Shown piece after piece: positions 199 to 11,011 of a stretch of 13,027 nt of DNA (position 1 is its first letter; each line of letters starts with the position of its first letter). The DNA lies in the NCBI GenBank assembly GCA_030636285.1, contig DAOVXE010000005.1:1-13027 (forward strand), written 5' to 3'. The translations under genes were made by a program, and so were the position numbers. This DNA comes from Candidatus Falkowiibacteriota bacterium. GTDB taxonomy: Bacteria; Patescibacteria; ABY1; BM507; UBA12075. The notes below the pieces were generated by a model that saw only the letters and a list, made by a program, of their open reading frames with translations, searched no databases and was not told the DNA's origin.

Positions 199-1608
199 AT
201 GAATAAATTTAAAACTTACAATATAATCACAATCGGGTGCCAAATGAACAAGAGTGATTCTGAGAGGATAGCCGGGCATTTTGAAGAGCAGGGGATGAGA
301 CCCGAGGCAGACAAGTATAAAGCCGATGTGGTGGTGTTAACGACCTGCGGGGTAAGGCAATCGGCCGAAGATCGGGTTTACGGTTTTGTTCCCAGGATAA
401 AAAAAGAAAATCCAGGCTGTTTTCTAATTCTTACCGGATGCTTGTCAATGAGGAGCGACGTAAAAAAGCGTTTAGGCGATTTGGTTGATTTATGGATGCC
501 GATAGGGGAAATATCAAATATCAAATATCAAATAAATTCCAAATTCAAAATCTCAAATTCCAAACAAGACAATTGTAGTTATTTGGAATTAAAAGCAAAG
601 TATAGTTCCGCTTTTAGCGCGTTTGTGCCGATCGGGAACGGCTGTAATAATTATTGTTCTTATTGCGTGGTGCCTTATGCTCGCGGGCGAGAAAAGTATC
701 GGCAAGCCGAGGATATAATAAACGAAGTTAAGGATTTGGCAAATAAAGGATATAAAGAGATTACGTTGATTGCGCAGAATGTGAACAGTTATAAAGTTAA
801 AAGTAAAAAGTTAAAAGTAGTTGATTTTTCAAAATTATTGCGATTGATAAATGATATTCCAGGTGAGTTTTGGGTGCGGTTCGCGACGAGCCATCCTAAG
901 GATATGAGCGATGAGCTGATTGAAACGATCGCTGAATGCGAGCGTGTTTGTGAACACGTGCATTTGCCGGCTCAGGCCGGAGATGATAAGGTTCTTAAAG
1001 CTATGAATAGAAAATACACCAGAGAAGAATATTTAATATTAATTAAAAAAATAAGACAATGTTGTAATGATAAAATGCCCTTTGGGTACAAATCAAATCC
1101 AAAATTGAAAATTTTTAATTCAAATAATTGGGTTGCGCCGGTTTCTATTACAACTGATATTATTGTCGGGTTCCCCGGGGAGACCAAAGAGCAGTTTGAA
1201 AATACGGTTAAACTTTTCAAAGAAGTTAAATTTGATATGGCCTATATCGCCCGGTACAGCCCGCGGCCCGGAACCGCGGCAGCCAAATTGAAAGACAACG
1301 TGCCTAAACAAGAAAAAAAGCGCCGTGAAGCCGCTTTGATGAAAATACTGCGCAAGACAGCTTTGGAAAATAATAAAAAATATATTGGAAAAACGGTTAA
1401 GGTTTTAGTTGAGAAAAAAGGCAAGGACGGTGATTGGTTTGGTAAGACAAGGACATTTAAAAATGTTAAAATAGACGACAGACCCGCCCGCAACGCGAGC
1501 GTAGCGAGGCGGGCGCGGCAGCAGACGGCAGAGAGTTTGTCGGGTAAGTTTGTGGAAGTTAAAATAATTAAGGTAAAGGATTTTGGTATGAAAGGGAAAT
1601 TAGTATGA
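199..1608 (+). CDS. miaB: tRNA-2-methylthio-N6-dimethylallyladenosine synthase MiaB
   Basis: Radical-SAM methylthiotransferase that adds a methylthio group to i6A37 of tRNA. The N-terminal UPF0004 domain has the three cluster cysteines C14 (GCQMN), C50 (TTCGVR) and C81 (TGCLS). The radical-SAM core has C149-x3-C153-x2-C156 (GCNNYCSYCVVPYARG), followed by TLIAQNVNSY and TTDIIVGFPGET; a TRAM-like domain ends the protein. At 469 residues it is longer than many MiaB proteins. The extra length lies in four places: residues ~104-125, ~199-208, ~287-316 and ~426-445. All four coincide with repeat-type DNA, and none falls on a catalytic motif. The start ATG 199 has no clear Shine-Dalgarno. The stop is TGA. 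The product of MiaA, encoded next, is the substrate of this enzyme. Confidence 0.95.
   Translation: MNKFKTYNIITIGCQMNKSDSERIAGHFEEQGMRPEADKYKADVVVLTTCGVRQSAEDRVYGFVPRIKKENPGCFLILTGCLSMRSDVKKRLGDLVDLWMPIGEISNIKYQINSKFKISNSKQDNCSYLELKAKYSSAFSAFVPIGNGCNNYCSYCVVPYARGREKYRQAEDIINEVKDLANKGYKEITLIAQNVNSYKVKSKKLKVVDFSKLLRLINDIPGEFWVRFATSHPKDMSDELIETIAECERVCEHVHLPAQAGDDKVLKAMNRKYTREEYLILIKKIRQCCNDKMPFGYKSNPKLKIFNSNNWVAPVSITTDIIVGFPGETKEQFENTVKLFKEVKFDMAYIARYSPRPGTAAAKLKDNVPKQEKKRREAALMKILRKTALENNKKYIGKTVKVLVEKKGKDGDWFGKTRTFKNVKIDDRPARNASVARRARQQTAESLSGKFVEVKIIKVKDFGMKGKLV
509..571 (+). repeat. Heptanucleotide tandem repeat inside miaB (first insert)
   Basis: Nine consecutive 7-base units: AAATATC three times, then AAATAAA, TTCCAAA, TTCAAAA, TCTCAAA, TTCCAAA, CAAGACA. 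The total is 63 bases, which is exactly 21 codons, so the frame is kept. It encodes a polar stretch between the UPF0004 domain and the radical-SAM core. Confidence 0.8.
793..820 (+). repeat. Heptanucleotide tandem repeat inside miaB (second insert)
   Basis: Four 7-base units, AAAGTTA AAAGTAA AAAGTTA AAAGTAG, encode the Lys-rich stretch after the QNVNSY motif, a position where MiaB proteins vary in length. Confidence 0.7.
1057..1146 (+). repeat. AT-rich in-frame insert in miaB (third insert), partly heptad-like
   Basis: About 30 extra codons separate the MNRKYTREEY segment from ITTDIIVGFPGET, where the family normally has a short link. Within it, about 1088-1129 is low-complexity with AAAT cores at 1095, 1102 and 1109, spaced 7 bases apart, resembling a decayed version of the first insert. 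Confidence 0.5.
1483..1537 (+). repeat. Composite repeat in the miaB TRAM region: GC palindrome plus two heptads
   Basis: CCCGCC (1483-1488) and GGCGGG (1508-1513) bracket CGCAACGCGAGCGTAGCG-type sequence. It is followed by heptads GACGGCA and GAGAGTT (1524-1537), the first of which matches the main miaA unit. It encodes about 20 residues rich in Arg and Ala (426-445) inside the TRAM domain, just before SGKFVEVKI. The base composition is far more GC-rich than the surrounding gene. Confidence 0.7.
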
Positions 1609-1648
1609 GAAGATAACTGCTCACCGGACATATAAAGTATTAAAAAAA

Positions 1649-1749
1649 CACTGTCATTCTGAACGTAGCGTAGCGAAGTGAAGAATCTCGAGAATATCAT
1701 AAGACGCTAAATTCAACGGGATTCTTCGCTGTCGCTCAGAATGACAGTG
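1649..1749. mobile_element. MITE/REP-like inverted-repeat element between miaB and miaA
   Basis: The ends are perfect 14-bp inverted repeats: CACTGTCATTCTGA (1649-1662) and TCAGAATGACAGTG (1736-1749). An inner pair, GAAGAATCTCG (1680-1690) and CGGGATTCTTC (1717-1727), matches with one difference. The 101-bp unit has no coding capacity of its own. The TGTCATTCTGA...GAAGAATC pattern resembles a dispersed repeat seen in many bacterial genomes (from memory, not searched). Its right end supplies the ATG at 1741 that opens the miaA frame. Confidence 0.8.
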
Positions 1750-2763
1750 AGCAATTATATGATAGGCAATAGACAAAAGCAAAAAATTATCGTGATTGTC
1801 GGGACAACCGGAAGCGGAAAAACCGCGCTGGCGGTTGATTTGGCGTGGAAATTCAACGGCGAGGTGATCTCGGCGGACAGCAGGCAAGTGTATAAGTATA
1901 TGGATATTGGGACAGGGAAAGACTTGGATGAATATATGATTAGACGGCAGAGAGCAGACGGCAGAGAGCAGACGGTAGAGAGCAGACGGCAGGATATTAA
2001 GATAGCTAGTCACTGCATTGATCTTGTGCATCCGAATACGGAGTTTAATTTGGGAAAATGGAAAAAGCAGGCCGAGAAGGCGATCAGGGAAATCAGCAAG
2101 CGCCATAGAGTGCCGATCGTGGCCGGCGGAACCGGTTTGTACGCGCAGGCTCTGGTTGATAACTATAATTTATTAAGCCAAAGCAAGCCGGATAAAAAGC
2201 AACGCGCGCGGCTGGAAAAGATGAGCGCAGAAAAATTATTTGAAAAATTGTTAAAGTTAAACGAAAAAATGGCATTAAGGCTTAATGTTAGTGATAAGAT
2301 GAACAAAAGACGTTTAATTCGTAAGATAGAAATTTTGTTAGACGACAGAGAGCAGACGGCAGACGGCAGAAAACAGACGACAGAGAGCAGACGGCAGGGT
2401 TATGATTCACTTGTGCTGGGTATAACTTGGCCGGCAGATGTGCTTAAGGAGAGGATACTAAAAAGAATAAATGATCGGCTGGAAAAAGAAGATATGTTAG
2501 GGGAAGTGGAGCGTTTACACACGGATCATAAAGTAAGCTGGAAACGGTTAAGTAATTTTGGTTTGGAATATAAATATTTAAGCGCTTATCTTCAGGGAGA
2601 AATTAGTTATAAAGATATGGTGCTTGATTTAGCCAGGGCGACTTATCAATTTAGCCGGCGGCAAATGACCTGGCTTAGGCGCTGGGAGCGGCAGGGCCGG
2701 AAGATTTATTGGGTAAAGAATAAGACAGAGGCAAGGAAGGCGGCCAGACAATTTTTAAAATAA
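1741..2763 (+). CDS. miaA: tRNA dimethylallyltransferase MiaA
   Basis: Transfers a dimethylallyl group to A37 of tRNAs, making the substrate of MiaB. The P-loop GTTGSGKT is at residues 21-28, ISADSRQVYKYMDIGTGK at 43-60, then VAGGTGLY and the C-terminal RQMTWLRRW. Two inserts, about residues 68-85 and 202-221, are encoded by heptad repeats and lie outside the core motifs. The first ATG (1741) lies in the terminal inverted repeat of the upstream element; ATG 1759 (MIGNRQKQK...) is equally plausible and still leaves 14 residues before the P-loop. No strong Shine-Dalgarno is present. The 3' end overlaps the end of the convergent gatB by 9 bases. Confidence 0.95.
   Translation: MTVSNYMIGNRQKQKIIVIVGTTGSGKTALAVDLAWKFNGEVISADSRQVYKYMDIGTGKDLDEYMIRRQRADGREQTVESRRQDIKIASHCIDLVHPNTEFNLGKWKKQAEKAIREISKRHRVPIVAGGTGLYAQALVDNYNLLSQSKPDKKQRARLEKMSAEKLFEKLLKLNEKMALRLNVSDKMNKRRLIRKIEILLDDREQTADGRKQTTESRRQGYDSLVLGITWPADVLKERILKRINDRLEKEDMLGEVERLHTDHKVSWKRLSNFGLEYKYLSAYLQGEISYKDMVLDLARATYQFSRRQMTWLRRWERQGRKIYWVKNKTEARKAARQFLK
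1943..1991 (+). repeat. Heptanucleotide tandem repeat inside miaA (first insert)
   Basis: Seven 7-base units alternate GACGGCA and GAGAGCA (one is GACGGTA). They encode an Arg/Gln/Glu-rich stretch (residues 68-84) between the DIGTGK motif and the HCIDLVHP segment. This family is GC-rich and purine-rich, unlike the AT-rich heptads in miaB. Confidence 0.85.
2341..2396 (+). repeat. Heptanucleotide tandem repeat inside miaA (second insert)
   Basis: Eight 7-base units: GACGACA GAGAGCA GACGGCA GACGGCA GAAAACA GACGACA GAGAGCA GACGGCA. They encode a polar stretch after RRLIRKIEILL. The consensus GAnnnCA is the same as in the first miaA insert, so both belong to one repeat family. Confidence 0.85.
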
Positions 2764-4260: not shown

Positions 4261-4545
4261 TTATATATTGATACTGTTTTCGTTATCAGTATATTGATGA
4301 ATAATAGAAGCGATTAGCGTTTGATAAGGAATTCCTTTTTTTATTGCTTTTGACTTTACTTTTTGCAAATCTTTTTCAGACAAACGAATATTGATATTTT
4401 TTGATTTTTTTAAGGTATTATCAGCGATTTTTTCAAATTTAGCTTTTTCTTTTTTAAACTGTGCTTTACTGATGGTTTTTAATTTACCCCCTTCAAACTC
4501 TTTTAGTATCTTCTTTTCTTCTTTGTCTAATTCATAATATTTCAT
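4261..4545 (-). CDS. CopG/BrnA-like ribbon-helix-helix antitoxin
   Basis: A 94-residue protein. The C-terminal part (about 49-86, NINIRLSEKDLQKVKSKAIKKG and following IPYQTLIASIIHQY) has the beta-strand plus two-helix pattern of ribbon-helix-helix antitoxins; the first 48 residues are charged and would be the toxin-binding segment. It lies 14 bases downstream of a BrnT-like toxin gene, the toxin-first order typical of BrnT-BrnA pairs. Such antitoxins usually repress their own promoter, and a matching near-palindrome is present at 4842-4863. No Shine-Dalgarno is visible. The assignment comes from pattern recognition only. Confidence 0.75.
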   Translation of the reverse strand: MKYYELDKEEKKILKEFEGGKLKTISKAQFKKEKAKFEKIADNTLKKSKNINIRLSEKDLQKVKSKAIKKGIPYQTLIASIIHQYTDNENSINI

Positions 4546-4559
4546 ATAGTTTATGTTAA

Positions 4560-4829
4560 TTATTTAAGATATTTTTTAGTAGCTTTGCGGCTGGGAATTA
4601 TGGTTTTTAAAAATATTTTATTATTATCCTCAATAAAAGGGACTAAATAAGCATAATTATTAATATTTATGATAAATATTTTTTGATTTGAATATTTTTT
4701 TGAATTCGGATGATTAATAATAGCTATAATTTTTTTTGATTCAATAGCGATAATTACATCCTCAAAGCAAATATCTCGCTCAATTTTTAGTTTTTCATTT
4801 TTTTTATAGTCCCAATCAAAATATTTCAT
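4560..4829 (-). CDS. BrnT-like toxin of a type II toxin-antitoxin pair
   Basis: An 89-residue protein starting MKYFDWDYKKNEKLKIER and ending KIFLKTIIPSRKATKKYLK, which fits the BrnT pattern of an N-terminal F-x-WD motif and a C-terminal basic segment ending in R-K-A-x-x-x-Y. BrnT-type toxins are RNases of the RelE-like fold that cut mRNA and stop translation; activity here is inferred. The predicted -10 box lies 7 bases before the ATG, so the transcript would be leaderless. It is AT-rich, like the antitoxin, and sits directly after the terminator of tmk. Confidence 0.65.
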   Translation of the reverse strand: MKYFDWDYKKNEKLKIERDICFEDVIIAIESKKIIAIINHPNSKKYSNQKIFIININNYAYLVPFIEDNNKIFLKTIIPSRKATKKYLK

Positions 4830-4912: not shown

Positions 4913-6007
4913 TTATTTATCAGTATTAATAAGCAATAATTTACCAATAGCCTGGCCGGGAATGATATTTAAAAATTCAGAATTAGTATTTTTTATCTCA
5001 ATCTTGATCTCCTGGTCAAATGACCGGTTTATTATTTTGATCGGCTTATGGTTTATATCAATGATCCAGCCAAAGGCCTGGGGCAGGAGTAATATTTTTA
5101 TGCCGGTCACAACATCCATGGTTGAGCCGGGTGGAATTGAATAATAGTCAGCCGCGGTAAGCAGATAGCTGTTATCAAGCGCGTTGAATTGGGGCGCGAG
5201 CGCTAATTCCGAGAGTTTTATAAATTCCACTGTTTGGCGTTTTTTAGCTTTAGGTTTGTCTGTGACAGGTTCATACGGCATTTGCTCAATATGATGCTCC
5301 TGAATTTTTAACAAAGGCCGAATTTTGGCCCTGAGCATTTCGTTAATTTCATCTTTGGGCATGATCCGGCCGTTTCTGGCGCATTTGATTACCATAATTT
5401 CCGGATAAAGGCCGGCCAGCTCTAAATATATTTTTTCCGCCTCACGCAAATGGTTAATGCTTTTTTCATGAATATCATTGGTTTTACCCTGCCAATCTTC
5501 ACTTTGCCTCATTAGCGCCATTGCCTGGGAAATTTCGGTCTCAACATGCAGGAATAAAACCGCGTCCGGCTGAGGGATATTAAATAGCTTGTATTCAAAG
5601 TTCCTGACCCAATCATAAAAAGCGCTTCTGTCCAGCTTGTTATTGATCTTGCCGCCCTGATGGGCCAGGTTGGAGGTTATATACCTGTCAGCTAAAACTA
5701 TTTTGCCTTCACGCAGATACTTTTTAATTTTAAAACTGGCATCATAGCGGTCAATTGCGTAAAATACTGAAGCTATGTAAGGGCTGACATCTTTGGCTTT
5801 GCCGTATTTGCCTTCCAGATATTCTTCCACCATGCCGGCGGATTTTGTGTTATATTGCGGAAAAGCGATTGTTTCCACGGCCAGACCGGCGTATTCCAGC
5901 CATTTTTTAAGCAAAGCGGTTTGAGTGGCTTTGCCTGAACCGTCTGTTCCGTCAATAACAATAAATTTACCTTTATGTTGTTCTAAATTATAATTGTTCA
6001 TAAACAT
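4913..6007 (-). CDS. tmk: Thymidylate kinase fused to a degenerate dUTPase-fold domain
   Basis: Residues 1-240 are a thymidylate kinase (dTMP to dTDP), with P-loop GTDGSGKAT at 20-28, DRY at 107-109 and LAHQGGK after it. A basic linker (PKAKKRQ, about 253-259) leads to residues ~261-364. That part has the strand pattern of the dUTPase/dCTP deaminase fold (IPPGSTMDVVTGIKILLLP...FGWII...IKIINRSFDQEIKIEIKN...IIPGQAIGKLLLI). The dUTPase catalytic signatures (AGxD, RSG, GVIDxxYxG and the C-terminal Gly-rich motif) are missing, and a full dut gene lies at 7508-7927. The C-terminal domain is therefore probably structural or ligand-binding. Met3 (6001) is an alternative start. A terminator follows at 4866-4899; the long inverted repeat lies just upstream. 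Confidence 0.9.
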   Translation of the reverse strand: MFMNNYNLEQHKGKFIVIDGTDGSGKATQTALLKKWLEYAGLAVETIAFPQYNTKSAGMVEEYLEGKYGKAKDVSPYIASVFYAIDRYDASFKIKKYLREGKIVLADRYITSNLAHQGGKINNKLDRSAFYDWVRNFEYKLFNIPQPDAVLFLHVETEISQAMALMRQSEDWQGKTNDIHEKSINHLREAEKIYLELAGLYPEIMVIKCARNGRIMPKDEINEMLRAKIRPLLKIQEHHIEQMPYEPVTDKPKAKKRQTVEFIKLSELALAPQFNALDNSYLLTAADYYSIPPGSTMDVVTGIKILLLPQAFGWIIDINHKPIKIINRSFDQEIKIEIKNTNSEFLNIIPGQAIGKLLLINTDK

Positions 6008-6231
6008 ATAATATTAGCCAATGCTTATACTTATTAACTCACCTTATGCACTAAATATTTTTACCTTAGAAAAAGTTATAATTAATGTAATTTAAACAAA
6101 AATGCTAAGATAAAACTTGTTCTTATCCTCGTTTTTGTTTAAATTACATTTATTATAACTTTTTTTACGTGATTAGCACGTAAGGTGAGTTATTAAATAA
6201 GCATAAGCGTAAGTCCTAAATATATAATATT
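6006..6231. mobile_element. Long inverted-repeat (MITE-like) element between adk and tmk
   Basis: The left arm (about 6020-6113) and right arm (about 6123-6208) are near-complementary over most of their length. Matching blocks include AACTCACCTTA, AAAAGTTATAAT, and ATGTAATTTAAACAAAAA, separated by a ~10-base loop; the arms differ by small indels and substitutions. The direct repeat ATATAATATT occurs at 6006-6015 and 6222-6231, a possible 10-bp target duplication, although AT-rich. No open frame is present. A second small palindrome, ACGTG-ATTAG-CACGT (6167-6181), lies in the right arm. It could equally be the structured leader of tmk. Left copy of the direct repeat overlaps the first ATG of tmk. 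Confidence 0.7.
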
Positions 6232-10812: not shown

Positions 10813-11011
10813 AGTCGTCTTTCGTGGTGCAAGCGAGTTAGAAAGTTTGTAAAGTTATAAAGTTTATAAAGTGTTAAATAATCTTACTTTACAAATTTTC
10901 AACTTTTCAACTTTTAAACTAAATTCTCTCCCACAAAATTAATAATATATTAAATTTAAAAATGATAGAAATTAGAATTTCTTTCGATTTTTGCTTTCTA
11001 CTTTCTATTTT
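10813..11011. repeat. Low-complexity repeats in the rplK-rplA spacer
   Basis: No gene is visible in these 199 bases. An imperfect inverted repeat pairs 10842-10855 (AAAGTTTGTAAAGT) with 10886-10899, with one mismatch. An 8-base period (TTTTCAAC, TTTTCAAC, TTTTAAAC) covers 10896-10919, and a 7-base period (CTTTCTA twice) covers 10994-11007. The small palindrome AGAAATTAGAATTTCT sits at 10967-10982. The AAAGTT wording resembles the second miaB insert. Confidence 0.55.

Follow-up and report, generated by a model that had tools for sequence, protein, structure and literature searches.

Heptanucleotide arrays in the miaB and miaA genes of a patescibacterial contig as probable single arms of dispersed hairpin repeats

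Why should two neighboring genes for conserved enzymes, miaB and miaA, contain tandem 7-base units that are read in frame? This question is raised by a 13,027-base contig of a Candidatus Falkowiibacteriota bacterium (hereafter the window, i.e., the whole stretch of DNA analyzed). Judged from its homologues, the window is a Falkowbacteria-like Patescibacteria contig: the homologues of its MiaA and MiaB proteins carry the names Falkowbacteria, Parcubacteria or Patescibacteria, and the nearest sequenced relative with available DNA is genome G053 (MiaA 74% identical), followed by G052. Our answer, to which we assign a probability of roughly two in three, is that the heptad stretches in miaB and miaA are in-frame single arms of hairpin-forming repeats that are specific to the lineage and have arms made of 7-nucleotide (nt) units, and that they are predicted to be translated as disordered loops.

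Both host genes, miaB (positions 199-1608, plus strand) and miaA (1741-2763, plus strand), are open reading frames (ORFs) named by Pfam. Tandem Repeats Finder (TRF) reports arrays of period 7 or 14 at 509-534, 534-564, 787-819, 1942-1992 and 2340-2397, all of them within these two frames. Two segments in miaB and one in miaA score at least 12 at a lag of 7 nt, further arrays being seen at lag 14; in 2,000 codon-shuffled miaB and miaA sequences, zero lag-7 segments reached this score, low-complexity ones having been removed. The proposal of an earlier note on this DNA that miaB and miaA carry heptad arrays in frame is thus borne out by the TRF arrays, the Pfam-backed frames and the array-free codon shuffles.

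Site B1 of MiaB (509-571, plus strand; TRF) sits in the linker joining the UPF0004 and radical-SAM domains recognized by Pfam. It had been described as exactly nine heptads; heptads are present and lag 7 scores best, but the run is not uninterrupted, since three AAATATC units are followed by a 4-nt phase step (AAAT before AAATTCC) and then by degenerate AAATTCN heptads. The same architecture is found in a relative (L134). At site B2 (787-820, plus strand; TRF), AAAGTTA/AAAGTAA heptads directly follow the residues NVNSY. The MiaB site B3 holds an insert without a clear heptad array, while the sequence of B4, in the TRAM domain (1473-1534, plus strand), consists of AGACNRC heptad remnants flanking a G+C-rich palindrome at about 1483-1515. 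The two units at 1524-1537 that had been listed separately are too short on their own and resemble the 3' leftover of an AGACNRC array that this palindrome interrupts; the relative P0122 reads DDRRQTTDDRN, uninterrupted, at B4. In MiaA, TRF describes site A1 (1942-1992, plus strand) as (AGACGGC AGAGAGC)n with 7.3 units and site A2 (2340-2397, plus strand) as (AGACGGC/AGACGAC/AGAGAGC/AGAAAAC)n with 8.3 units, both without an inverted partner. AlphaFold models give a predicted local distance difference test (pLDDT) score below 50 at A1 (residues 74-81), A2 (208-218), B1 (114-131), B4 (430-444) and also B3, and of about 74-79, i.e., moderate confidence, at B2. The heptad stretches are predicted to be translated as disordered protein loops. 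Their position in loops away from the catalytic motifs is supported.

In other species, the equivalent sites contain different heptads or translated palindromes, or they are empty. We located them among 120 homologues listed per gene with regular expressions that fitted 101, 81, 84, 113, 93, and 50 proteins at A1, A2, B1, B2, B3, and B4, respectively, the expression for B4 starting too early in some proteins. At A1, occupied by AGACGGC/AGAGAGC in the window, other species have at least five clearly different units (AATTTCC, AAATTCC, GTCAAAA, GAAATCG, GATTGCC/GATTTTC). Depending on the species, B2 is built from CACACAA, GATTGCC, AATTACG, AGACRGC (in L134) or AAAGTTA, and its empty form has 6 residues. 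At A2, L142 has AGGGAAC-type heptads and L134 a palindrome; at B3, 43 of the 93 matched homologues possess an empty form of 7 residues. Landing sites outside these two proteins include the inter-domain linker of MurG in three genomes, TsaD, LigA, and the linker of Memo-AMMECR1. We also observed a thymidylate kinase-dUTPase fusion with a heptad array in its linker (L172:7207-8529), and three proteins of 725-783 residues (P0148, P0172, P0224) with MiaA and MiaB Pfam domains in one chain, apparent fusions. It had been asked whether insert lengths are multiples of 21 nt. We rejected such a quantization: the 22 heptad-bearing inserts at A1, B2, and B3 fill all values modulo 7, and only 3 of the 22 stand at zero. 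A near-identical MiaB fragment (P0125, 99%) has unchanged copy numbers at the two heptad sites within its reach.

Period 7 is enriched in the genomes of the relatives, as had been anticipated. Four consecutive AATTNNN units gave 2,675 matches (long arrays being counted more than once) in 69 of the 111 genomes of the order, 42 genomes having zero; same-type patterns gave 106 matches in 45 genomes at period 8 and 11 matches in 9 genomes at period 6. Read in reverse, the pattern becomes TTAANNN, again an array of period 7 (about 375 matches by hand count), and hence is not an independent control. Genomes G062-G095, consecutive in our listing, are nearly without AATTNNN arrays (at most two matches each), and the sampled ones have larger contigs. 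The family of G003, sampled over 364 kb, shows 12.6 lag-7 segments per 100 kb; at lags between 4 and 24 other than multiples of 7, the density is 0-1.4 per 100 kb. A sample of 267 kb from G010, G009, and G103 yielded 45 lag-7 segments, compared to one in 400 kb from six heptad-poor members of the order with similar GC content. In G010, G009, and G103, the arrays are mostly intergenic by density, as in cyanobacteria: about 112 per 100 kb between genes vs. 7 within genes, measured on stretches picked by contig number and with ORF-edge arrays set aside. Some arrays are perfect and many are degenerate. The sampled arrays form 129 pairs of the same unit class, compared to a mean of 10 (maximum 35) for random local 7-mers and a mean of 31 (maximum 50) for letter-shuffled units. 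The idea of a shared process behind the arrays, as opposed to chance, is supported.

Not every array keeps to a period of seven, however. The rplA-rplK spacer of the window contains an inverted pair of 8/9-nt units (10836-10920, no strand assigned), detected by TRF and predicted by folding to form a hairpin, and G103 has 15 period-8 arrays beside 22 of period 7. In G103 (L207-L211), and also in G033 and G102, period-8 arrays and period-8-armed hairpins stand beside those of period 7. The length of the repeat unit may be a trait of the lineage. The composite pattern AAAYAAATTCAAAATTCAAAATTC is recurrent and of low copy number, with only 18 exact copies in 13 of the 111 genomes.

The AGACNRC (GACGGCA) family illustrates dispersal within a lineage. 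Three consecutive AGACNRC units match 34 times in G053, 28 times in G052 and zero times in eight other genomes, a comparison to which the reversed pattern adds no independent control since it describes nearly identical heptads. Among the 37 distinct arrays of the window, G052, and G053, with both arms of one hairpin counted as two arrays, 8 of the 16 intergenic ones have an inverted partner and none of the 21 genic ones does (Fisher's exact test, 0.0003); random placement gave a partner in 42 of 740 cases. Pfam supports the frames of 18 of the 21 genic arrays; the frame in L249 is without a match, and L255 and L292 lay outside the scan. The hosts are MiaA, MiaB, Memo-AMMECR1, TsaD, LigA, ribosomal protein L3, DNA polymerase I, RNA polymerase alpha (RpoA), a glutamyl/glutaminyl-type and a class-I tRNA synthetase, an MnmA-type tRNA thiolase, a Gmad2 protein, RmlD in both G052 and G053, and an S1-domain protein with two arrays. 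In all 21 genic arrays, the AGAC orientation lies on the coding strand, where it yields polar peptides (RQQTTDN; mean hydropathy -2.1 to -3.0). The opposite strand of the common units is stop-free too, but it encodes Cys/Val/Leu-rich peptides (hydropathy +0.8 to +2.9). Because the orientation is uniform though both strands are stop-free, selection at the protein level is the likely filter of the orientation of genic AGACNRC arrays.

Across all unit classes, an inverted partner lies within 160 bp of 24 of the 63 intergenic arrays (1 of 126 controls) but of only 3 of the 40 genic arrays (1 of 80 controls), the other 37 being single-armed. For this set, 106 of 109 arrays were kept because 7 was their best lag, and its genic share is biased since the arrays come partly from contigs chosen for miaB and miaA. 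The intergenic elements measure about 100-150 bp; their predicted folds reach -46 kcal/mol, and the stems of the folded examples consist of heptads. Twelve copies from G006, G009, and G010 can be aligned as one family (alignment A3). The phase step of site B1 recurs as the junction CAAAYAAATTC in ten genic single arms (none with a partner, and including the copy at window position 529) as well as in nine intergenic copies, five of which have a partner. With ORF-edge arrays set aside, heptad-rich genomes carry 17 copies of this junction pattern in 862 kb and heptad-poor ones a single copy in 400 kb (binomial test, 0.02). The earlier note had taken the different units to speak for a shared mechanism rather than one amplified element. 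That part is not supported: unit classes recur above chance, both of the nearest relatives have GACGGCA-family units scattered over their genomes, and the B1 junction is found in intergenic hairpins as well.

We therefore favor single arms of hairpin-forming repeats as the origin of the miaB and miaA stretches. Arms or whole elements would be copied to new places, slippage by 7 or 14 nt would alter the number of units, and selection would retain those copies that keep the frame, are free of stops, and encode a peptide, often a polar one, that the protein can tolerate. Since 7 cannot be divided by 3, an array of stop-free heptads gives one cyclic 7-residue peptide in all frames, and so its landing frame matters little. 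This independence of frame holds for 8-nt units too and does not by itself explain why the unit is seven. With ORF-edge arrays again set aside, 28 of 56 genic arrays are open in all three coding-strand frames, and 42 of 107 intergenic ones have no open frame on the strand that was read.

A number of observations weigh against this explanation. Hairpins of the GACGGCA family were seen only in relatives; many intergenic arrays are partnerless (39 of 63 overall, 8 of 16 in the AGACNRC family); and inverted pairs within one gene do occur, namely in MurG (L132) and PrmC (L121). Nine of the ten genic junction copies lie in miaA or miaB because those loci were sampled on purpose, and the 21 genic AGACNRC arrays are not fully independent since some form orthologous pairs between G052 and G053. 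Gene calls throughout are mechanical ORFs. No insertion event was caught, and no strain-level empty-site pair was found. The two arms of a copy also show little sign of belonging together: in 17 copies, complementarity was 28.6 between own arms and 26.8 between cross arms, a difference reached by 1,984 of 20,000 permutations, and in G010 alone own-arm complementarity was below that of cross arms. We consequently rejected arm-arm co-evolution and do not claim compensatory change. RNAalifold predicted only 11 pairs on the MAFFT alignment A3, one of them with a double change, a low yield that we attribute to arms slipping out of register. As to a role of the hairpins as terminators, which may yet apply, co-directional genes flank 19 of the 22 non-genic hairpins, compared to 372 of 517 gaps in the background (Fisher's exact test, 0.22), and with one of the 22 between convergent genes this small sample reveals no preference for convergent ends.

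Each array could instead have been born locally, made in place by replication slippage of 7 nt and kept in tolerant loops, with no copying between loci. In favor of this, a MutS_V domain is present in only 4 of the 111 genomes (3 above the cut-off), although loops of 7 nt are not an expected substrate of mismatch repair. Mrazek (2007), as told in PMC4679880, proposed slippage with a 7-nt step for such repeats, and by that account no category of long simple repeats is more abundant than heptads in most of the genomes surveyed, in keeping with local birth. The variation of units at a given site from species to species also speaks for it. Yet unit classes recur far above what local composition yields, AGACNRC is scattered through two genomes and missing from eight others, the phase-step junction is common to genic and intergenic copies, and inverted pairs are frequent. 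Taken together, these data make local birth rather unlikely to us. Repair or polymerase genes also failed as candidates for a switch of heptad formation: MutS_V is nearly absent everywhere and so cannot separate heptad-rich from heptad-poor genomes, and DinB (22 of 111 genomes) is not associated with heptads (Fisher's exact test, 0.63).

That the arrays are REPIN-type elements moved by Y1 tyrosine transposases associated with repetitive extragenic palindromes (RAYT) appears quite improbable. Inverted-repeat hairpins are indeed the REPIN design as presented in PMC3116915, and 41 of 53 heptad-rich genomes have a Y1_Tnp (PF01797) match, compared to 14 of the other 58 (Fisher's exact test, 2e-8, uncorrected for kinship and with some matches weak). 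Kinship is a likely confounder of this co-occurrence, given the consecutive heptad-poor run G062-G095. Moreover, 12 heptad-rich genomes, incomplete drafts, are without a Y1 match, and the flanks of six Y1 genes hold G+C-rich palindromes. Arrays lie within 500 bp at 4 of 20 Y1 loci and at 161 of 718 genes, thus no closer, and this weighs on our own explanation too; the 20 loci were taken from more than 100 matches, several ending at a contig edge.

Selection of the inserts for a function in the host protein (e.g., as disordered linkers) or for phase variation by copy number is hardly credible, although the hydrophilic orientation of all 21 genic AGACNRC arrays and the recurrence of arrays at the same loops would fit. 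Empty sites are common, as at B3 of MiaB, unrelated palindromes occupy the same sites, and the insert lengths do not follow 21-nt steps. Finally, fragmentation tends to be greater in the sampled heptad-rich genomes than in the heptad-poor ones, but the chance of an assembly or binning artifact is negligible since the arrays are short (most below 60 bp), open in frame in genes, and seen again and again across many assemblies and among proteins of diverse sources.

By analogy, the closest kinds of known elements are the Rickettsia palindromic elements (RPE), which work alike, and heptanucleotide repeats. RPE, as described by Ogata (2000) and told in PMC2229807, are hairpin repeats of 100-150 bp that occur in spacers and also, without breaking the frame, within conserved protein genes, where they are tolerated and not useful. 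Compared to that description, the present repeats likewise comprise dispersed palindromes of about 100-150 bp and in-frame copies in conserved genes (MiaA, MiaB, MurG, TsaD, LigA, RpoA, and DNA polymerase I, among others). In contrast, the genic copies are rarely whole palindromes (0 of 21 AGACNRC and 3 of 40 arrays overall are partnered), the arms consist of 7-nt units, and the hosts are Patescibacteria; the likeness put forward here is one of design. The arrays are head-to-tail 7-nt units above chance, as heptanucleotide repeats are. With the heptamer and long simple repeats of Cyanobacteria, Xanthomonas, and Beggiatoaceae (Mrazek, 2007, as cited; PMC4692102, PMC4679880), as outlined there, they have in common the unit of 7 nt, a mostly intergenic position, and lineage-specific units; they differ in their often degenerate units, frequent inverted pairs, and repeated in-frame occupancy of the same loops.

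Other systems are less similar. REPINs, in the account of PMC3116915, are also dispersed, mostly extragenic inverted pairs that form hairpins; here, at most about half of the intergenic arrays are so paired, the arms are tandem 7-nt arrays, half-copies occur in genes, and there is no enrichment beside Y1 transposases. The BrickBuilt element of Porphyromonas gingivalis likewise has a tandem repeat within an element resembling miniature inverted-repeat transposable elements (MITEs), with a 23-nt unit and, as portrayed in PMC4596501, always in intergenic position. Borg repeats (PMC9879509) are similarly A-rich and give predicted disordered stretches when genic, but are reported as perfect and with ORF unit lengths divisible by three, unlike the unit of 7 here. 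The enterobacterial repeats RU-1/2/3 are MITE-like as well and have frames fused into genes, heptads being unmentioned in the abstract of that paper (PMC2759123). Our search of the open-license PMC literature returned no title or abstract start describing heptad arrays in Patescibacteria.

Pfam names gatB, tmk, thyA, a gene of dCMP-deaminase type, rplA, rplK, and nusG in the window besides miaB and miaA, and adk- and dut-like frames were named by eye only from the ORF list. An Rfam scan of the window gave zero matches. Positions 1-185, the apparent 3' end of an upstream gene, form an imperfect 101-bp tandem duplication with a stop and a GGCGGGCAAGCCCGCC palindrome in each copy. The miaB-miaA gap holds at 1649-1749 the inverted repeat CACTGTCATTCTGAACG...CGCTCAGAATGACAGTG, and the loci of G053 and G061 have similar stretches. 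An intergenic palindrome of about 170 bp at 6028-6199 consists of two nested arm pairs (94% and 81% complementary); nothing similar was found among the relatives sampled. The adjoining small CopG-antitoxin-like and BrnT-like genes at 4261-4829 are likely a toxin-antitoxin pair, the BrnT match being below the curated cut-off. The thymidylate kinase (4913-6007) is extended at its C-terminus by about 150 residues to which Pfam assigns no domain.

In a bolder form, which we put forward only tentatively, the self-dispersing, heptad-armed hairpins of this clade could serve as portable, frame-agnostic linkers, disordered and adapted in advance, whose landing places are loops of core enzymes as different as MiaA, MiaB, RNA polymerase alpha, and DNA polymerase I. 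Our explanation accounts for odd low-complexity insertions (NSKFQIP, QTTDNRQ) in conserved enzymes, which can mislead alignment and annotation. If true, it would join heptanucleotide repeats and protein-coding palindromes, so far kept apart, in a large uncultured lineage, and the question "why seven?" would become approachable by contrasting heptad-rich and heptad-free genomes of one order.

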